Source of the DNA: Actinomycetota bacterium
GTDB lineage: Bacteria; Actinomycetota; CADDZG01; WHSQ01
Direction of reading: 5' to 3'
DNA length: 46,590 nucleotides
Assembly: GCA_009380005.1 (NCBI GenBank)
Contig: WHSQ01000023.1
Coordinates: forward strand, 1-46,590
Below are positions 6,677 through 20,784 of this stretch, in pieces. The notes below the pieces were generated by a model. That model ran no database searches, was not told where the DNA came from, and saw only the letters and a program-made list of their open reading frames with translations. How positions within the stretch are numbered: the stretch's first letter is position 1; every line of letters starts with the position of its first letter. The position numbers were made by a program, and so were the translations under genes.

Positions 6677-6829
6677 CCCTTCCCCCAATCAATACAAGCA
6701 AATCTGCATTCGCCTCATCCGGCGGAGCGAAGCCAGAAGTGTAATATGCAAAATCGAAATGGTGGTCTTTGAGTAGACGAAGGGCCGCTGCTCGGGGCCG
6801 CCCCTATGAACAGGGGGGGATGGGTCGCC

Positions 6830-9800
6830 GTGGAACTCACTCGTCGAGACTTCTTCAAGCTGTCCGCCGCCGGAGGTGCCGGGGCCGCGTGGGCGGCGTT
6901 CGGTTTCGACATGGAGCCCGCTTACGCCCAGGTTCGAGAGCTCAAGATCTCACGTGCCACCGAGGTGCGTTCCGTGTGTCCTTACTGTGCGGTGGGCTGT
7001 TCGATGATCGCCTACGTCACGGGACACGAATCCTTCAACACGACTCCCCATCTCGTTCACATCGAGGGCGATCCCGATAGCCCGATCAACGGCGGATCCC
7101 TCTGCCCCAAAGGGGCCAGCACGATGCAGCTCGCCGTCAACTCGAATCGGGTCAAGTCTCCGATGTACAGGGAGCCCGGAGCCAGTGAATGGCAGGAGAT
7201 CTCGTGGGAAGACGCGCTGGATCGCCTCGCGCGTCTGATGAAGGATGCGCGCGACGAGCGTTTCGTCGATAAGGATGACGAGGGCAACACCGTCAACCGC
7301 AACGAAGGCTTCGCCTGGGTCGGCGGAGCCACCATCTCCAATGAAGAGGGTTACCTGACCACCAAGATGTTCCGTGCCCTCGGGTGCGTGGGATTGGAGC
7401 AACAAGCCCGGGTTTGACACGGCCCCACGGTGGCCAGTTTGGCCGCCTCGTTTGGCCGGGGGGCCATGACCAATCACTGGGTCGATTGGAAGAACTCCGA
7501 CGTCTTCATCGTTATCGGAGCGAATCCGGCGGAGAATCATCCTTGCGGGTGGAAATGGGCCCACGTCGCACGCGACACGCGCGGGGCCAAGATCATCCAC
7601 CTCGATCCTCGCTACACCCGTACTTCGGCGGTCTCGGACATCTGGGCACCGATCCGCGCCGGCACCGACACAGCCTTCTTCGCAGGACTCATCAATTATG
7701 TGCTGGAGAACGAGCTCTATCACGAGGAGTACGTAAAACTCCACACGAACGCGTCATTCATCCTGTCCGAGGACTTCGAGTTCAACGACGGATTGTTCTC
7801 CGGCTACGACGAGGACACGCGCGGCTACGACACGACATCCTGGTCGTACGAGGCTGAGCCCGCGACCGACCAGCCGCCTCCCGGCTTGGCGCAGGCGGCT
7901 CAGAAGACGAGCGATAGCCCGACCAATGCCAGGCGCGACCCGAGCTTGAAGCACCCGCGCTCGGTATTCCAGTTCCTCAAGCGCCATTACGCACGCTACA
8001 CACCCGAGATCGTCTCCAAAGTCACCGGGATCCCCGAGGACAAGTTCCTCGAGATAGCCGAGATCATGGGATCCACCGGTACCGCAGACCGGGCCGGCAA
8101 CGTGGTGTACGCAGTGGGTCTTACGCATCACACCATGGGCGGGCAGATGATCCGAGGGATCGCCGTCCTCCAGCTGTTGCTGGGCAACGTGGGGAAACCC
8201 GGAGGAGGCGTCAACGCCGAGCGCGGGCATGCCAATATCCAAGGCAACACCGACAACGCCCAGTCGTGGGAGATCCTCCCCGGCTACCTGCGGGTGCCCC
8301 AGGTCGGCCAGGAGACCCTTGCGCAGTACGTCGAAGAGAATGCCTCCACGAAGTCTGCGGCGAACTCCCTCAATTTCTTCGGCTCCATGTACAAGAACTT
8401 CATGGTCAGTCTGCTCAAGGCGTGGTTCGGAGATGCAGCCCAGAAGGAGAACGATTTCGGCTACGCATGGCTCCCGAAGCCCGATAAGAACTGGTCGTGG
8501 ATGACGATCCACGATGAGGCGCGGGCCGGGCGGCTCCACGGTCTCTTCAACGGCGGGATGTCGAGCGTCAACATCGGCCCGGACTCCAACCGCATCATCG
8601 AGTCGCTGTCGAACCTCAAATGGTTCGTCGTCATGGATCCGCTGCCGACGGCCTCGTCCGACTTCTGGCGCGGCCCGGGTATCGATCCGGAGCAGGTGCA
8701 GACAGAGGTGTTCTTCCTCCCCACGACCCACTGGATCGAGAAGTCTGGGGCGTTCACCAACTCCGGCCGTTGGGCGCAATGGAAGCATGCAGCGCTTCCC
8801 GCGGAGTCGGGGATCCGGGACGACAGCTACATCCTGGCCCAGCTCTTCTCGCGCTTGCGGGCGCTGTATGAGGAGGAAGGCGGTCCGCACCCCGAGCCCA
8901 TCGTCAATCTGAGCTGGCCGTACACAAATCCCGACAACCCGCCTCTGGAGGAGCTGTCCAGGGAGATCAACGGGAAGGACCTGACGACGGGCCTTCAGCT
9001 GTCCAGCTTCGTCGACTCCAAGGACGACGGCTCCACGAGCCAGGGCAATTGGATCTACACGGGCTCTTACACCGAAGAAGGCAACATGATGGACCGGCGC
9101 GGTACCGATGATCCGACCGGCATGGGCTTCTTCCATAACTGGGCGTGGTCGTGGCCGGCGAACCGCCGGGTTCTCTACAACCGGGCGTCCGCAGACGCCA
9201 AGGGGGAGCCGTGGGATCCATCCCGGCCCGGTATCAGGTGGAGCGGAAGCTCGTGGGTGGGAGATGTTCCCGACTTCCCAGCCGATTCCGACCCGAAGGA
9301 GGATGTCGGGTCCTTCATCATGACCGGCGAGGGCGTGGGGCGGCTCTTCGCGCCCGCAAGCCTGATGCGGGACGGCCCCGTGCCGGAGCACTACGAACCG
9401 CAGGAGTCGCCGATCGAGAACCTGCTCAGCTCGACGCGTAACGATCCCGCGACGATCATCTACGAGGGAGCCGCTGCCAGCTTCGCGGAGGACGACAGCG
9501 AGTTTCCCTATGTCGCAACGACCTATCGAGTAACCGAACACGAGCATTTCGTCACGCAGCACGTGCCCTTCCTGGTCGAGGCGATGCCGGACTTCTTCAT
9601 CGAGCTCCCGGTGCAACTCGCCGAGGAGAAAGGCATCGAGAACACCGACATGGTGAAGGTGCGCTCCAAGCGCGGCGAGGTCGTCGGCGTGGCGCTGGTA
9701 ACCAAGCGCATGCGTCCGATCAAGATCGGAGACGGGAAGGTCGTGTACCAGGTGGGGATCCCCGTCCACTGGCACTACGCGGGCGGAACGGGGAAGGGTA

Positions 9801-9901
9801 AAGCCGCTCAGATGGCGAATCTGCTGTCGCCTTATATCGGTGATGCCACGGTCAACACCCCCGAGTTCAAGGGGTTCCTCGTCGACATCGAGAAGGCGTG
9901 A
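6830..9901 (+). CDS. fdnG: Formate dehydrogenase catalytic subunit, selenocysteine-containing, Tat-exported
   Basis: This is the large molybdopterin subunit of a membrane-associated formate dehydrogenase (FdnG/FdoG type), which oxidises formate to CO2. The frame is interrupted only by TGA at 7415-7417, within QQARV-U-HGPTVASL. This is the position of the catalytic Sec, followed by the invariant His, so the TGA is read as selenocysteine. With the GTG start at 6830, Sec is residue 196, as in E. coli FdnG, and total length is about 1023 residues against about 1015. A Tat signal (TRRDFFK at 4-10, AYA at 31-33) and 4Fe-4S ligands Cys50, Cys53, Cys57 and Cys92 are visible. AGGGGGGGA at 6812-6820 supports 6830; an ATG at 6806 is the alternative. 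A conventional gene caller would split it into 6806-7417 and 7430-9901. Confidence 0.93.
7415..7465 (+). promoter_or_regulatory. Selenocysteine TGA codon and SECIS-like hairpin
   Basis: The TGA codon at 7415-7417 is followed within the coding sequence by a two-part stem. The lower stem pairs 7421-7426 with 7460-7465 (GGCCCC/GGGGCC). The apical stem pairs 7429-7435 with 7441-7447 (GGTGGCC/GGCCGCC, one G-U) around the loop AGTTT. The apical stem starts 11 nt after the TGA, close to the spacing of bacterial SECIS elements bound by SelB. The hairpin also encodes conserved formate dehydrogenase residues, so part of the pairing could be incidental; folding and comparison with homologues would decide. 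Confidence 0.75.
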
Positions 9902-14960: not shown

Positions 14961-16292
14961 CTACGCGAAGATGTTGCGGCGCGGTGCGACCGAGCGGGCC
15001 CGAAGGCCCTCTAGCCCTGTCGCCACGCCGAAGTGGGTCAGCTCCAGCGAACGGTCTTGCCAGTCACCGCCCTTGGACATCATGCCCAACGGCACGGCGA
15101 TCTTCGTGACATCCCACATGCCTCTTGCTGCGCCGCGCTCATCGATCGGGACGCTGTTGCCCCATTCGTCGCGTGTGCTCCACCCTTGTTCGGCGAGGAT
15201 CGGGGCGAGACGCGCCTCGATGTCGTCGGTTGGGATTTCTCCTTCGGTGATGAGCAGAGGAAAGAGGACCTCGGCCACGGCGTACTCGAAGTCCTCGCCC
15301 ACGAAGAGCCCACGTGCGACCGTCCGCCACAGCGTCTCGATGTCCTTGAGCCCCCGCCGTCCTGCCGGGGCCAGCAACAGCTTGCGGCCCTTGCGGCGGA
15401 CCAGCTTGAGCCGGCGTGCGAAGTGGTGCAGCTTGCGCAGGTAAGGGACCTCGAGCTCGGTGGTCAGGCGATGGAAGAAGTCCCACCAGTCATAGCGCGC
15501 AGCCGCCTCCTGGACGAAGGCCCGGCCCAGGTTGTGCTTCTGTGTGAGGGGGATTTCCTGTTCGGCAGCGCTAAGGAACCAACGAAGTGGCTCCAGTGAC
15601 TTCTCGGCGTCCTCGGGAACGGCCATCGGTTCCGCGAGTCGCGCAGCGATCCTTTCCAGCAAGGAACGGCGCGCGTCGCTGCGGCCCCGCAGCCAATCCT
15701 CCACGCGCTCGGCATGCACGGCTTCGAGGGGCGTCTTGCCTTCGAAGGCCGCGTTCGACGTCGTGAGCCACGCGCGGGTGATCTCCTTTTGTCTCTTGGT
15801 CCATCCCGGCGCCCCCGGCTCAAGGTCGCCGGCGAGGATCGCCATCTCCAACGCGGCCGCGGCTCCGGAAAGAGCGGCGTTCTCCTGCAACCCGAAATAG
15901 GTGCCCCAGGCAAGCTCCTCGGTGTCCGGGGGCTCCACGCCGGAGCCCTTCTGCGCGCGCCGATAGGCGGGGAGACCCTCGTCCTTGTCCCACGCTTTGA
16001 TGCAATCGCGCGTCGTCTCGGATCGGGAGATGGCCGCGTACCGGCTGAGGCCGACCATCTCCAGTAGCCGCCCGAGGGCATCGGCTACTTCGAGCTGGGT
16101 CTCGACGGATGCCAGGAACTTCTTTGGCAGCGTGTACCAGAGGAAGTCCTGCAGGGCGTGCTGAGTGACGCCGTCGAAGCCCTCTCCGGCGGTGAGCCAC
16201 TGGACCGCGGAGTCCGCGCTCTGCGCCGCTTTCGGATCTTCCGATCGCAGGGTCTCTAGGGCCGTATCGAGGTCCCGCACGGTGGGTTGCAT
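14961..16292 (-). CDS. Conserved hypothetical protein with winged-helix-like C-terminal half
   Basis: This 443-residue protein has no known name. The middle and C-terminal region (about 235-345: IPLTQKHNLGRAFVQEAA, LRKLHHFARRLKLVRRKGRK, a GRRGLKD turn, then LWRTVARGL) resembles the region found downstream of the pRiA4b ORF-3 (PF07929) domain in some actinobacterial proteins. The N-terminal ORF-3 domain itself is not visible. A segment near 185-205 (TPLEAVHAERVEDWLRG) recalls MbcA/ParS-type antitoxin helices, but this is weak. The start is uncertain: ATG at 16292 or GTG at 16301, neither with a clear ribosome site. It is co-transcribed with the helical protein downstream. A DNA-binding role is a guess. 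Confidence 0.65.
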   Translation of the reverse strand: MQPTVRDLDTALETLRSEDPKAAQSADSAVQWLTAGEGFDGVTQHALQDFLWYTLPKKFLASVETQLEVADALGRLLEMVGLSRYAAISRSETTRDCIKAWDKDEGLPAYRRAQKGSGVEPPDTEELAWGTYFGLQENAALSGAAAALEMAILAGDLEPGAPGWTKRQKEITRAWLTTSNAAFEGKTPLEAVHAERVEDWLRGRSDARRSLLERIAARLAEPMAVPEDAEKSLEPLRWFLSAAEQEIPLTQKHNLGRAFVQEAAARYDWWDFFHRLTTELEVPYLRKLHHFARRLKLVRRKGRKLLLAPAGRRGLKDIETLWRTVARGLFVGEDFEYAVAEVLFPLLITEGEIPTDDIEARLAPILAEQGWSTRDEWGNSVPIDERGAARGMWDVTKIAVPLGMMSKGGDWQDRSLELTHFGVATGLEGLRARSVAPRRNIFA

Positions 16293-16371
16293 GGTCACCA
16301 CTACTATCAGGTTCGCGATGCGGGAGCCCGCGAGGGGGGGACTCCGGTCCGATGACGGTCCAGCGCGTGTC

Positions 16372-16684
16372 CTAGGGCTCAGACGGATCCGGTCCCGGCG
16401 CCGTGCTGACCCTTTGAAGGAAGTCGAACAGGGGTCGATACGCGATCCCTTCGAAGATTTTCTCCTGTATCGAGGTAGTACCAGTCACCCATCTTCGGAT
16501 TCTGTCGGTCTCGGCGAAACACGACCTGCCTGTCGGTCTCGCGATCCATCGCTGGCTCGTCGTCTCTGATCTGGAGCGTGGGCCGCGAGCCATACCCATG
16601 GCAGCCCAAGAGTCGCGTGAAGTGGGAGGTTTGGTAGCTGGGTAGCGGAGGCGGTTGAGTGGGATAGCGATAGATATCGCTCAA
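16372..16684 (-). pseudogene. Frameshifted small ORF (about 104 residues if repaired)
   Basis: Two overlapping leftward frames each look half protein-like. The upstream frame gives a Tyr/Trp-rich segment ending MGDWYYLDTGE. The downstream frame continues KIFEGIAYRPLFDFLQRVS and stops at 16372. They join naturally if one A is added to the AAAA run (TTTT at 16458-16461 on the plus strand). This suggests either a homopolymer error in the assembly or a true one-base deletion. The 5' end is unclear: TTG at 16684, or an ATG about 45 codons in. I do not recognise the family. It sits directly upstream of the two unknown genes and downstream of the AbiE-like pair. Confidence 0.4.
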
Positions 16685-16780
16685 ACGCTAGCGATTCGGC
16701 CCCCTTCTCACGGCCGGGCCGCCGTCCCGCGTCACCCGACTTGGTGGCGTTGATCAGCTGCTGTGGCTGGTCGCTGCCGT

Positions 16781-16819
16781 GTCATGGGTTGCCTCAAGAT
16801 TCTTGAGGTTAGTCATGAC
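16781..16819. terminator. Nested stem-loop downstream of the AbiE-like pair
   Basis: The inner stem CCTCAAG-ATT-CTTGAGG (16792-16808) is flanked by an outer stem GTCATG/CATGAC (16781-16786 with 16814-16819), separated by symmetric 5-nt internal loops. It lies about 80 nt beyond the stop codon of the leftward nucleotidyltransferase gene, where a terminator would be expected. No T-run follows on that strand, so it could instead be a processing site or a protein-binding palindrome. The rest of 16685-16901 shows no gene. A 9-bp direct repeat CCCCGGACT is also present at 16829-16837 and 16846-16854. Confidence 0.4.
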
Positions 16820-16901
16820 GCGCCAACGCCCCGGACTAACCGATTCCCCGGACTGGGAATTCTTTAAGACGCTCGCGCAAGGCGCGTAGAGCTACCGTCT
16901 C

Positions 16902-17765
16902 TCAGCCCAAGTCCTTTGCCAGGGACTTCCTGAGGTCGGCGATGAACCCGTTGCAGACCGCCCGGGCACGCTCCTCCGGCACCGCGCCTCTGAGATAGGC
17001 GATCGCTAACGTCGTACCCGGAGTACCGGCAGCACGGAACTGCTCGATCAGGGATTCGACTCCTGAGGAGACGGACTCTCCGATCCGATCGTCCCTCATA
17101 AGCTCCGCGGCGGTGCGAGCACAGTCTGTGGGACTGGATGTCTGCATCAGTCGGTACACGTCGCCGGCGTCCTTCGCTATGACGCGGCCCGGCCTCCTTG
17201 TCTGCTCGAGGCGCTCCTGAATCTTGTGGGCTTTTGCGACTAGAAGAGCGAGGGGGCCGGCCACCTTCACGTCGAGCGCTCGATCGTCCCCTGGATCGAG
17301 GCTCTCAACGGTCATGATGCTGTTGTCAATCACCGCCGCCTCTAGTCCCGGGATCTTTCGTGCCGCGACTTTCCCGTGAGGTCCGAGACGCGCTCCTCGC
17401 CGCCCTGCTTTGGCCGCGAATTCGCTTGGCACGATGAGGTCGACGGGGAATTCGGCGGTTTCACCGGCCACGGTTCGCTCAACGATCCATATCCCTGGCT
17501 CGGGCTTGTCCTTGGGCTTGAGTTCGAAACCAGCCTCTTCCATCGCTCGTCCCAGCGTGGGCTCGTCACGCAGTCGCGAGGGGTCGAGCGCGATATCACC
17601 GTCGGTGGTAAAGGGCGCGATCGCAAGATCCGCTGCACCGGCCCGCAGGTAAACAGCTTGTGCTCCGACAACGATGATCGCGTCGAGGTGACCGGTGAGT
17701 GCTTTTAGCGCGTCCAGAAGCACGCGCCTGGCCTCGACATAGAGCGGGTCGATGTCTGCGCTCAT
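16902..17765 (-). CDS. Nucleotidyltransferase-fold protein, AbiEii-like toxin candidate
   Basis: This 287-residue protein has a nucleotidyltransferase-like N-terminal part. IIVVGAQAVYLRAG (about 32-45) matches the Gly-rich start of the fold, and PFTTDGDIAL (about 51-60) supplies the DxD metal-binding acids. A later segment PVDLIVPSEF and helical C-terminus complete an AbiEii/DUF1814-like layout. In type IV AbiE systems this partner is the toxin, and some members transfer nucleotides to tRNA. The ATG at 17765 overlaps the stop of the upstream regulator gene (ATGA), the usual AbiEi-AbiEii gene order. A GTG at 17777 would add four residues. The family is diverse, and an antibiotic nucleotidyltransferase-like protein without toxin function is possible. 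Confidence 0.68.
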   Translation of the reverse strand: MSADIDPLYVEARRVLLDALKALTGHLDAIIVVGAQAVYLRAGAADLAIAPFTTDGDIALDPSRLRDEPTLGRAMEEAGFELKPKDKPEPGIWIVERTVAGETAEFPVDLIVPSEFAAKAGRRGARLGPHGKVAARKIPGLEAAVIDNSIMTVESLDPGDDRALDVKVAGPLALLVAKAHKIQERLEQTRRPGRVIAKDAGDVYRLMQTSSPTDCARTAAELMRDDRIGESVSSGVESLIEQFRAAGTPGTTLAIAYLRGAVPEERARAVCNGFIADLRKSLAKDLG

Positions 17766-18883
17766 CCGGGGACCCACTCAGGCATTTTGAGATCGGATAG
17801 CGAAGACGATCGCCAGCTCTTTTCGTTGTCGGCCATCCAGGCGATCAGAGCTTCACCCTCCGACGGCATGCGTCCGCTACCTGACAGGCAGTCGATGGCC
17901 ACCTGACTTGGGGCGGCCCACAAGAGTCCCTCTTCCTCTCGGACGTTCAGGTACACGTTTGTGTTCTCTGGTCTAACAAGCGCGACGTCCCCTCCTTCAG
18001 GCGCAGGTAGCAGGTTTAGCCGCCCGGCTAGCCGATCCTTGTTCGCGGACGGCGTGAAGAGAACGAGTAGTGCAGGAGCGGCGATAGGTGCGAGTCGCAC
18101 GGCGGCGAAAGAACCGGTAACGACGAATTTCTCTTCCGGTTCGCCGCGCAACTCTTGGAGGAACGCGCGCGCTCCGTTCGGCGCGATGTAGAGACTGGAA
18201 GTGTGGGGTGCGAGGAGGTCGAGAGCTTCGGCGCGGCGTCGGATCAGACCCTGCCAGTTAACGTCGATGACCTGGCCTCTCGCGGCGCCCCGCTCGATCA
18301 GGGCTTCCGCAGACAAGGTTTCCAGAATGCGGGTGACGTAGCCGGGAGTAACGCGTGCGGCATCGGCAATCTCCGTGACCCCGTAAGGGGGTCGGGCATC
18401 TACCAGCACCCTTATGACGCTGCCAACTTTGGCGCCGCGCAACCCCCGTGCGCGGCGAGGCTTCGCGAAGGGGTTTTGATCGGCGCCGCGGGTTTCGAGG
18501 AAGACCGCTGGATTGCTGAGGACCAACCGAAGATTCCCGGTTAGGTCGAGGTAGTTGACGTCCTCCTCGACCAAGAGCTCGCGGCTGCGAGGGCTGACGA
18601 AGGGTGCCACGACCAGAATCGGATCGCCGCCAACCGCCCTGAGTCGCTTGAGCAGCCCGCCACCGAGCATGAGCTGGACATCGCGAGGGGAGAGCGATGC
18701 TCGGGCCTCGACGATCAGTCCCCGGCTTGAGCTGCTGGGCCCACGGATTTCCCACAGGTTGTCTGCTTGGCCTGACCCTGCGTTGTACATGACTTCCTCG
18801 ACCGACCAGTCGGGGGGAAGGCGATCTCGGAGGATCGCCATGGCTTTTGGTAGAAGTTCCTTCTCAACGTCTTTGACCACCAT
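17762..18883 (-). CDS. AbiEi-like winged-helix regulator / antitoxin candidate
   Basis: This 373-residue protein resembles AbiEi-family regulators of type IV toxin-antitoxin systems. The N-terminal region (about 1-130) includes LIVEARASLSPRDVQL and DPILVVAPFVSPRSRELL, followed by NYLDLTGNLRL, a hallmark of the family. A winged helix lies at about 155-200 (GVTEIADAARVTPGYVTRIL), and a C-terminal domain follows. The ATG at 18883 has GAAGGA eight nt upstream and is preferred over a TTG six nt earlier. The coding sequence couples to the nucleotidyltransferase by ATGA. AbiEi proteins repress their own promoters by binding inverted repeats; two palindromic copies lie over and upstream of this start, fitting autoregulation. 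Assignment is by pattern recognition, without a database search. Confidence 0.7.
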   Translation of the reverse strand: MVVKDVEKELLPKAMAILRDRLPPDWSVEEVMYNAGSGQADNLWEIRGPSSSSRGLIVEARASLSPRDVQLMLGGGLLKRLRAVGGDPILVVAPFVSPRSRELLVEEDVNYLDLTGNLRLVLSNPAVFLETRGADQNPFAKPRRARGLRGAKVGSVIRVLVDARPPYGVTEIADAARVTPGYVTRILETLSAEALIERGAARGQVIDVNWQGLIRRRAEALDLLAPHTSSLYIAPNGARAFLQELRGEPEEKFVVTGSFAAVRLAPIAAPALLVLFTPSANKDRLAGRLNLLPAPEGGDVALVRPENTNVYLNVREEEGLLWAAPSQVAIDCLSGSGRMPSEGEALIAWMADNEKSWRSSSLSDLKMPEWVPG

Positions 18884-18961
18884 GGGCAATATCCTTCTTT
18901 AGGCAAAGATTGACTAAAAGGAAGTATTGACCACCATGGTCAAGGTGTCAATTTAGGCAAA
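18873..18961 (-). promoter_or_regulatory. Duplicated operator-like palindromes and promoter of the AbiE-like operon
   Basis: Two copies of a near-palindrome (TTGACC-ACCAT-GGTCAA, perfect at 18927-18943; one mismatch at 18873-18889) lie 54 bp apart. Each is followed by TTTAGGCAAA (18898-18907 and 18952-18961), also 54 bp apart. On the gene strand a -35 TTGACA (18946-18951), a 17-bp spacer and a -10 AATACT (18923-18928) can be read. The perfect palindrome overlaps this spacer, while the other copy covers the AbiEi start codon. A repressor bound here would block both transcription and the start region. The sequence is directly visible; the repressor identity is inferred. Confidence 0.65.
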
Positions 18962-19031
18962 ATAGCAGGTAGTAGGGCACTTTTGGTGGAGGAGGGTATC
19001 TCTCTAGCTCGGCCCGGCCGGCGGATTTCCA

Positions 19032-19110
19032 GGTGGTCCCTAGTTAGTGGCCAGGGGGTGGTCCCTAGTTAGTGGCGAGAAGTGCCTAAAGGTGGTCCCT
19101 AGTTAGTGGC
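19032..19110. repeat. Three exact 20-bp direct repeats
   Basis: GGTGGTCCCTAGTTAGTGGC occurs exactly at 19032-19051, 19057-19076 and 19091-19110, separated by 5 and 14 nt. The gene-free stretch 18962-19302 contains these repeats and nothing else I can identify. Irregular short spacing rules out a CRISPR array. Multiple terminal repeats of an insertion sequence (as in IS21-type ends) or an iterated protein-binding site are the likeliest explanations; no transposase gene is adjacent. Confidence 0.8.
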
Positions 19111-19302
19111 AGGCGACAGTCCTGGGTACGGACCTCTTTCCTTCCGTCGATCGGTGGCCCCACCCTCAATCCGAAACAAACTCGCGGTCGGCTCGGGACG
19201 CTTTGCAGTGATGGATTCTGGTTGGATTCCGCCTCCCGATGGGCCCGCATAATTCGCGCCGCATTGCTGAGGAAATCGCCCTGACAAGGGGGGTTCATCC
19301 AG

Positions 19303-19376
19303 CGCGCCCGGAGGGATTCGAACCCCCGACCCTCGGATTAGAAGTCCGATGCTCTATCCAGCTGAGCTACGGGCGC
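19303..19376 (-). tRNA. tRNA-Arg (anticodon TCT)
   Basis: The minus strand folds into a full cloverleaf of 74 nt. The acceptor stem is GCGCCCG/CGGGCGC, the D-arm contains TAGCTCAGCTGGATAGAGC, the anticodon loop is CTTCTAA with TCT, and the T-arm is GGGGGTTCGAATCCC. The discriminator base is G and CCA is not encoded. A -10-like TATACT lies at 19403-19408 on the same strand. Its 3' end points into the accessory region, a usual arrangement for island integration. The 317-nt stretch from here to the next gene (19377-19693) shows no other recognisable feature. Confidence 0.95.
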
Positions 19377-19693
19377 AGCGCCTCGTTTCCGCACGTGTAG
19401 CGAGTATAGGAGTGGCTTGCTACAGGTATCGGGTCCGAGTCTCCAAAGATCCCCCCGATCTCTGAAGGTAGCGAAAGGCGTTCCGGTTACGAGAGCGGCT
19501 CCTCGTTCGCTTCTCGACGCGCGGCGCCAAACGCCTTTCCGGGCGCCTGGATGGAGATGCGGCTGAGCGAGTTCTTCCGCGAGGCCCGGACACCGGCCCC
19601 GCGGCCACTGAAGCAAGCCGGGCAGCGGCCGTTTCGTGGTACAAGGCTTGGGAACAGACGTTGAGGTCATGTTCCGTCGAAGGGAGACGAGGG

Positions 19694-19873
19694 ATGCCCA
19701 AGTACCTGAGGGTGGTCGAGAAGGACGACAAATGGTCCGTCGAGTTGGATGGCGAAGAGCAAGCCGTTTACGACACGCAGGCAGAGGCCGAGGTGAGGGG
19801 CCGGGAGCTCGCCAGGGAGAAGGGCGCGGAGTTCCGGGCCGCCCACAAGCCGACCGACCCCGGCCCCCGCTAG
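19694..19873 (+). CDS. DUF2188-like small protein
   Basis: This 59-residue protein has the pattern of the DUF2188 family: an N-terminal strand MPKYLRVVEKDDKWSVEL, then DTQAEAEVRGRELAREKGAEF, and a short basic tail. Family members are small cytoplasmic proteins of unknown function, often present in several copies in actinobacteria. The ATG at 19694 is chosen because a purine-rich GGGAGACGAGGG precedes it; the open frame extends 11 codons further upstream without family similarity. The stop codon TAG lies inside a perfect 21-bp tandem duplication (19861-19902), so the gene end may have been changed by that duplication. Confidence 0.7.
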   Translation: MPKYLRVVEKDDKWSVELDGEEQAVYDTQAEAEVRGRELAREKGAEFRAAHKPTDPGPR

Positions 19874-19902
19874 CGACTCCCCGGCCCCCGCTAGCGACTC
19901 CC
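19861..19902. repeat. Perfect 21-bp tandem duplication over a gene end
   Basis: A 21-bp unit starting CGGCCCCCGCTAG and ending CGACTCCC occurs at 19861-19881 and again, identically, at 19882-19902. The first copy holds the TAG stop codon of the DUF2188-like gene. It is probably a recent replication-slippage duplication. Confidence 0.9.
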
Positions 19903-19968
19903 AGGGCGGCGAGCCACCGACATCCCTGCTAGATCGCCCGGGTCGGCGCGTCTCGGGAAGCTTCGACC

Positions 19969-20784
19969 CTAGATCGCCTGGGCGAACGCGTCGGCGATGA
20001 TCCGGTAACCGGAGTCGTTCGCGTGCAGGCAGTCCGTACCACCGACGAGGTCGGCCGGGCCCAGTCGACCGTACGTCTCAGCCACCGAGGCCCCGGCGCC
20101 GGCAGCGATCGCTCGGATCCAGTCGTTGAGGCCCATCGCCAGGATCCCGGGGGCTCCTTCGAGCACGACGTCACCCAACGAGGAGAGAGCTGCGAGGTTG
20201 CAACCCACCAGCGAGTTGTAATACGTCATCACCACGATCTCTGTATCGGGCCCCGCAGCAGCGCGCAATTGATTCAGCGTCAACGTGAAGTTCTGGATGA
20301 AGGTCGTGAACCTCTGTTGGATGCCGAGCTGGCAGTCGGCGGTGAACCCACCCGCGCAGACGGCGACGAGGGGGAACACGTCATTGCCACCGATGTCAAC
20401 GGTGATGACCGCTACATCGTTCCGGGACGTGGCGTCCTGGTTCCTGGCTTGCAACTCGGCGAGCGCTTGAGGCATCTGGACCTGGAGGAGGCTGGTGCTC
20501 GTCGCCCCGCTCACGCCGACGTTGTTCAGGCGCAGCGATGGACAAACCTGGGAGTCTCCCCGCCCGCACGAGAGGTTCTCGCGCAGATACTCGTGGAAAA
20601 GCGGCACGTAGGCGGTCTCGGCCCGATCCGACGCTCCGACCCCCGTGGCGAGGGAATCACCCAGGGCCACGTAGGTGGGAACGGAGGCTCGAGACGGAGG
20701 CGTCGCAGGATCGGCGAGAGCAAACGTGGGTACTGCGAGTACGGATGCGAGGACTCCGGCGACAAGACTCGTGATCCTCTTCAT
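19969..20784 (-). CDS. Secreted SGNH/GDSL-family hydrolase
   Basis: This 271-residue predicted secreted esterase or lipase has a signal peptide at about 1-25 (KRITSLVAGVLASVLAVPTFALA). The GDSL block is VALGDSLATGVGA with Ser44 as the nucleophile. GGND occurs in the middle (the third SGNH block), and TDCLHANDSGY near 250-260 supplies Asp251 and His254 for the catalytic triad. Four or more cysteines suggest disulfides, consistent with export. The ATG at 20784 is chosen because it starts the signal peptide; the frame is open further upstream but overlaps the CAP-domain gene. It begins 20 nt after that gene ends, so the two are probably co-transcribed. The substrate is not evident. Confidence 0.86.
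   Translation of the reverse strand: MKRITSLVAGVLASVLAVPTFALADPATPPSRASVPTYVALGDSLATGVGASDRAETAYVPLFHEYLRENLSCGRGDSQVCPSLRLNNVGVSGATSTSLLQVQMPQALAELQARNQDATSRNDVAVITVDIGGNDVFPLVAVCAGGFTADCQLGIQQRFTTFIQNFTLTLNQLRAAAGPDTEIVVMTYYNSLVGCNLAALSSLGDVVLEGAPGILAMGLNDWIRAIAAGAGASVAETYGRLGPADLVGGTDCLHANDSGYRIIADAFAQAI

Follow-up and report, generated by a model that had tools for sequence, protein, structure and literature searches.

We conclude that the window, the 46,590-nt stretch of DNA analyzed here, carries an AbiE-like operon encoding a wHTH regulator or antitoxin-like protein and an NTase, and that the first of these proteins very probably represses its own promoter through a tandem operator, a reading built on sequence comparison. 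The features that carry the argument are as follows.

17762-18883, minus strand: AbiEi-like gene, 373 aa, counted from the ATG at 18883; in-frame TTG at 18889
16902-17777, minus strand: NTase-like gene (putative toxin), overlapping the AbiEi-like gene by 16 bp
18923-18951, minus strand: predicted promoter TTGACA-17-AATACT, a consensus match
18951-18946, minus strand: -35 hexamer TTGACA, followed by a 17-bp spacer
18928-18923, minus strand: -10 hexamer AATACT
18892-18897, minus strand: putative Shine-Dalgarno-like GAAGGA
18910-18960, minus strand: operator unit 1, four half-sites (35/42, p 0.005), holding the -35 and -10
18960-18954, 18943-18937, 18933-18927 and 18916-18910, minus strand: unit 1 half-sites TTGCCTA, TTGACCA, TGGTCAA and TAGTCAA
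18856-18906, minus strand: operator unit 2, an incomplete copy across the start codon, with three of four half-sites and two mismatches in the genome pattern search
18906-18900, 18889-18883 and 18879-18873, minus strand: unit 2 half-sites TTGCCTA, TTGCCCA and TGGTCAA; the fourth is absent

The regulator gene comes first and the NTase gene overlaps it, and the original prediction of an AbiE-like operon is supported. The promoter, too, is present where it had been placed, and it is the sole promoter-like match in the 3.7 kb scanned (16300-20000). The closest homologue, L062 (58% identity), keeps TTGACA-17-AACAAT. A perfect palindrome, TTGACCATGGTGGTCAA, lies in the spacer and extends two bases into the -10 (18943-18927, minus strand), and the same palindrome with one mismatch, TTGCCCATGGTGGTCAA, lies 54 bp downstream (18889-18873), where it spans the ATG at 18883-18881; both had been claimed and both were found. 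Additionally, TTTGCCTAAA (TTTAGGCAAA on the plus strand) has only two copies in the window, 54 bp from each other; the expectation with one mismatch allowed is 0.22 chance matches. This sequence had been described as a separate second motif. Its duplication at 54 bp holds, but it is not separate, being the outer half-site of each operator unit.

A fourth half-site that had previously been missed, TAGTCAA at 18916-18910, turns unit 1 into a 51-bp nested palindrome. Each unit thus has the architecture L-17/18-L-gap-R-17/18-R, with two left and two right half-sites over about 51 bp in the window. The 54-bp period corresponds to the unit length of 51 bp plus 3 bp, so that unit 2 follows unit 1 almost directly, and the inner palindrome of unit 2 is centered on the start codon. 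Searching the 3.8 Mb genome for the four-half-site pattern returned only units 1 and 2 of the AbiEi-like gene promoter.

The same block had been explained as a recent duplication of a promoter segment, which would have left two operator copies by descent. A 35-nt direct repeat (18873-18907 and 18927-18961) that is 77% identical at an exact 54-bp offset speaks for such an event. However, seven of its eight mismatches fall in the linker of 8 nt, where just 1/8 positions agree when the two copies are compared by eye, so the repeated element is a set of short half-sites and nothing more. The second copy also lacks the -35 and -10 hexamers. Furthermore, homologues with 35-58% identity share the tandem layout, which makes it an old family feature; the inner pair recurs in tandem at 53-56 bp both in L062 and in homologues at 35-50% identity. 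L062 does not have the second TTTGCC outer half-site, indicating that half-sites turn over one at a time. Recent duplication is largely refuted by the unlike linkers and the shared layout, and we consider it quite improbable. Judged by its sequence, the block at 18873-18961 is a tandem operator and not a duplicated promoter.

We examined a named set of 63 nonredundant homologous loci and a second set of 28 loci with more distant homologues. Averaged across the 63 homologues, palindromy is highest at centers +2, -1 and -52, counted from the start codon. To derive the spacing of the half-sites, we searched around the strongest palindrome at every locus for further copies of its arms. Both sets gave a second left arm 17-18 bp upstream and a second right arm at the same distance downstream, with z values of 5.0 and 12.0 in the named set and 7.1 and 4.7 in the second. 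We then searched for L-17/18-L-gap-R-17/18-R, scoring the mutual agreement of four 7-mers (maximum 42). Scores of at least 30/42 were reached at 41 of the 63 named loci, compared to 0.14 expected from dinucleotide shuffles, and at 27 of the 28 second-set loci, compared to 0.11 from shuffles; the second set does not count as a strict hold-out, as the spacing was derived from both sets together and it includes a few loci that are close or identical to named ones. The named set on its own yields the same 17-18 bp spacing. At control spacings of 13-16 and 20-26 bp, only 0-1 loci scored at or above 30/42, no comparable excess.

Other subfamilies have a single full unit centered on the start codon (-1, +2), at -10, or near -28 to -33, which means that the start-codon position is not universal. 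Four loci (L110, L112, L115 and L124) have a unit centered -10 from the assigned ATG, and in their close relatives an ATG or GTG lies within the palindrome, nine bases farther upstream; the start codons of these four may be misassigned or shifted. The distant homologues L012-L061, many of them AT-rich, have near-perfect four-half-site operators upstream, and the operator of L016 (AGTTTCA AGTTTCA TGAAACT TGAAACT) scores 42/42.

The suggestion that the upstream regions of homologous pairs be aligned for the 54-bp spacing was borne out, with the spacing kept at 53-56 bp. When we paired a palindrome near the start with a like one farther upstream, ignoring the spacing between them, 15/63 loci scored at least 19/24 compared to 0.17 expected, a count that, like the 13/19, 18/63 and 17/19 below, includes phylogenetically related sequences. 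The spacings of these pairs are mostly 53-56 bp. Among related loci that have a unit centered between -58 and -48, the layout of the window, the inner pair is repeated 53-56 bp downstream in 13/19, compared to 2.3 expected if positions were uniform; about a third of the loci with this layout have no clear start-codon copy. The best inner-pair repeats, matching at 13/14 positions, are those of the window and L088. At least five of six base pairs flank the start codon in 18/63 loci, again including relatives, compared to about 1.8 at random centers, and the rule-based and therefore uncertain assignment of some homologues' start codons lowers such start-centered counts.

Conserved N-terminal residues (M-x-A-N, M-R-N) could produce similarity at the start codon as a by-product, and Ala-Asn is indeed common at codons 3-4 among the homologues. 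Yet the codon-3 alanine is GCA in 17/19 cases, related sequences included, and GCA makes up 13.7% of the alanine codons in these genes, so the constraint acts on the DNA and not only on the peptide. The left arm, moreover, precedes the start and is paired with the right arm. We give the by-product reading hardly any weight. The operator constraint that a tandem copy over the ATG imposes would extend into the coding sequence and fix the first codons of the repressor.

The position of the promoter differs among the homologues. In 30/63 loci, 7-13 nt separate the end of the best predicted promoter from the start codon, suggesting transcripts that are leaderless or nearly so. At these loci the start-codon site falls on the predicted transcription start, and the left palindrome arm would hardly be transcribed. 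In the window and in L062 the promoter lies inside unit 1 and is followed by a leader with a Shine-Dalgarno sequence. Because operator spacing is kept while promoter position varies, the spacing appears to serve the protein.

These observations bear on whether the start-codon palindrome acts in the mRNA, either as a hairpin that presents or hides the AUG or as a protein-RNA site. The arms do flank the AUG, and the leader in the window, about 30 nt with its Shine-Dalgarno sequence, would include both of them. However, the leader's fold is no more stable than those of shuffled sequences (z 0.38), and on this ground the RNA hairpin was set aside, as was the original suggestion of translation-level action through RNA structure. 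Many homologues look leaderless, the same half-sites also occur upstream of the promoter, and the wHTH is of a DNA-binding type, all of which makes an mRNA site unlikely. A DNA-bound roadblock at the start codon is possible.

The probable binder of the tandem sites is the encoded AbiEi-like protein. The start of its recognition helix, residues 179-185, reads TPGYVTR. Using one sequence per 50%-identity cluster as the sole control for phylogeny among these related sequences, and pairings picked after inspecting the data, we found S, T or A at position 182 with a [GA]TTCC half-site in 7/9 cases compared to 0/24 for other residues (Fisher 8e-6), and D or N at 179 with a GTTG half-site in 6/7 compared to 3/26 (5e-4). 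This co-change of helix and half-site favors the encoded protein as the binder. Promoters are often targeted by several regulators, and the operator could in principle belong to another one, but three observations count against this: the half-site letters track the recognition helix of the linked gene's wHTH, the pattern is confined to the AbiEi-like promoter in the genome, and the linkage between operator and gene holds across several phyla. We judge a foreign regulator to be a poor prospect and infer that the AbiEi-like protein is a dedicated autorepressor.

The AbiEi-like protein has a PD-(D/E)xK-like N-terminal domain, a central wHTH (approximately residues 151-208) and an NTase-like C-terminal domain. 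Its only profile matches are generic wHTH ones; none of the AbiE models of Pfam, NCBIfam and PADLOC matched. A contig scan with the single protein as query found no homologues. Within the family, PF09952 (AbiEi_2) matches 16/60 members at E<=0.01 (best 5.5e-6), the window protein not being among them. Following the literature, we take PF09952/AbiEi_2 to be equivalent to COG4861. By sequence the family resembles COG4861/AbiEi_2 and appears closer to it than to COG5340. The label AbiEi stands in the sense of AbiEi_2-like, but not in that of the COG5340 AbiEi of Streptococcus agalactiae.

An AlphaFold model built from a 60-sequence alignment has a mean pLDDT of 93. Foldseek against the PDB gave domain-level matches to EndoMS and other nucleases, to IclR/MarR wHTH proteins including TtgV, and to MenT1-like NTases; nothing for this protein or for the NTase-like protein reached E<=0.001. 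From the nature of these matches, the modeled N-terminal domain is probably EndoMS/nuclease-like, the central one IclR/MarR-like and the C-terminal one MenT1-like. Sequence searches of the PDB with either protein found only wHTH-level or chance matches. The PD-(D/E)xK triad of the window protein is D41, E59 and R61; 42 of the 60 homologues have E at position 59, and at position 61 K is present in 31 and R in 24. The state of the triad, with R61, makes nuclease activity of the window protein doubtful.

The NTase-like protein has motifs I-IV (hG[G/S/A], DhD, K..R and [KR]DxxD), as defined for AbiEii (PMC3985639), with a longer spacing between motifs I and II than in AbiEii. The corresponding residues, G38, D59xD61, K182..R189 and KDxxD at 202-206, are invariant in 54/54 homologues. 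PF08843 (AbiEii/DUF1814) matches only 2/54 of these at E<=0.01 (best 0.0071), PF12281 (NTP_transf_8) matches 20/54 NTase partners, and the window protein itself has no Pfam match. Its model (pLDDT 94) has fold matches to ANT(2'')-Ia and other NTases. The NTase gene adjoins the AbiEi-like gene in 77/80 homologous loci identified by tblastn against genome contigs. The pairs come mostly from Actinomycetota and also from Chloroflexi, Acidobacteria, Myxococcota, Proteobacteria and others. The two proteins probably form a type IV-like toxin-antitoxin pair in which the NTase is the toxin.

AbiE of S. agalactiae (AbiEi COG5340, AbiEii DUF1814) is negatively autoregulated (Dy 2014, PMC3985639). Its AbiEi binds two 23-bp inverted repeats 3 bp apart (TGTTGCTTTTA-N27-TAAAAGCAACA) that cover the -35, -10 and +1, and transcription starts 26 bp upstream of the ATG (PMC3985639). 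The window shares with this system the bicistronic regulator-NTase operon, the wHTH protein, the inverted repeats at the promoter and NTase motifs I-IV. In contrast, the wHTH of the S. agalactiae protein is N-terminal, the position expected for COG5340, whereas that of the window protein is central, after an EndoMS-like domain, and in place of two 23-bp repeats the window has four half-sites at 17-18 bp and a second unit over the start codon. Rv2827c-Rv2826c of Mycobacterium tuberculosis is also autorepressed, through repeats IR1-IR4 that are bound with differing affinities (Beck 2020, PMC7319586). These 23-bp repeats lie within -1 to -131 and end before the start codon, with a 13-bp gap in pairs and 4 bp between them (PMC7319586). 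Both loci have two sets of inverted repeats in the promoter, but Rv2827c is COG5340-type with another spacing rule and no repeat over the start codon, which unit 2 of the window covers.

COG4861 (AbiEi_2)-COG4849 pairs such as Rv0837c-Rv0836c have been described only as putative regulators or antitoxins (PMC3985639, PMC7319586), and our literature search found no operator described for COG4861-type AbiE-like systems. The window resembles these pairs in its NTase partner, in having the regulator gene first and in the 16/60 relatives that match PF09952; the window protein itself falls below PF09952 detection. TtgV (IclR family, PDB 2xrn/2xro) is alike in its wHTH, by profile and by fold, and the matches are confined to that domain. 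The window protein has no effector domain, unlike TtgV. TtgV is a tetramer that binds a long operator. As in autoregulated toxin-antitoxin operons, the window has repeated symmetrical sites over the promoter that are specific to the operon. We therefore regard the locus as AbiE-like, apparently a new variant of the autoregulated toxin-antitoxin operator, and not AbiE in the strict sense.

In the mechanism that we propose, four wHTH domains, probably from a dimer of dimers of the AbiEi-like protein, would occupy unit 1 and exclude RNA polymerase from the promoter core. Unit 2, with its mismatch and missing half-site, would have lower affinity and be filled next, at higher protein levels. Once occupied, it would block the initially transcribed region and the start codon from the DNA side, as a roadblock. 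Filling unit 1 and then unit 2 would produce a graded, cooperative shut-off, and the NTase would be the toxin held in check.

The wHTH antitoxin-like proteins with NTase partners form a large, barely characterized superfamily. We lean, by a little, toward the view that all of it uses one operator grammar of four half-sites at 17-18 bp, with letters readable from recognition helix 179-185, and that head-to-tail tiling of the unit in Actinomycetota places its second copy over the start codon. If true, such a universal grammar would amount to a testable DNA-recognition code for an entire defense-related family. Because the four-half-site unit is found upstream of most sampled homologues, it predicts binding sites in other genomes and offers a way to check start-codon calls, and the homologous loci provide ready natural repressor-operator pairs for studying change in wHTH recognition.

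Two features adjoin the operon on its upstream side.

18982-19127, plus strand: block with three copies of GGTGGTCCCTAGTTAGTGG, adjoining the operator and not part of it
19302-19376: tRNA-Arg (TCT), directly upstream of the operon

The copies of the 18-mer GGTGGTCCCTAGTTAGTGG in this 146-bp block are spaced by 25 and 34, the block ends 21 bp upstream of the operator, and the 18-mer occurs only there in the genome. A block with 90% identity and the same spacings is present in a different genus of the family (G002, L147), where we detected no AbiEi-like homologue. The triple repeat of GTGGTCCCTAGTTAGTGG was considered as extra operator copies and rejected, as it does not fit the unit grammar and the block also occurs in the genus with no detected homologue; the block may be the end of a mobile element. 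We likewise rejected insertion of an island at the tRNA-Arg: no repeat of at least 13 nt of the tRNA 3' end is present in the window, so no att sites are shown. Downstream of the operon, a 446-aa protein (14961-16301) has a weak match to an Xre/MbcA/ParS C-terminal domain, below the curated cut-off. Farther along, a formate dehydrogenase alpha subunit gene (6806-9901) is split by an in-frame TGA at approximately 7415, with a SECIS_3 match at 7412-7470; its product is a predicted selenocysteine enzyme, and the gene is followed by iron-sulfur, cytochrome-like and FdhE/FdhD-like genes.
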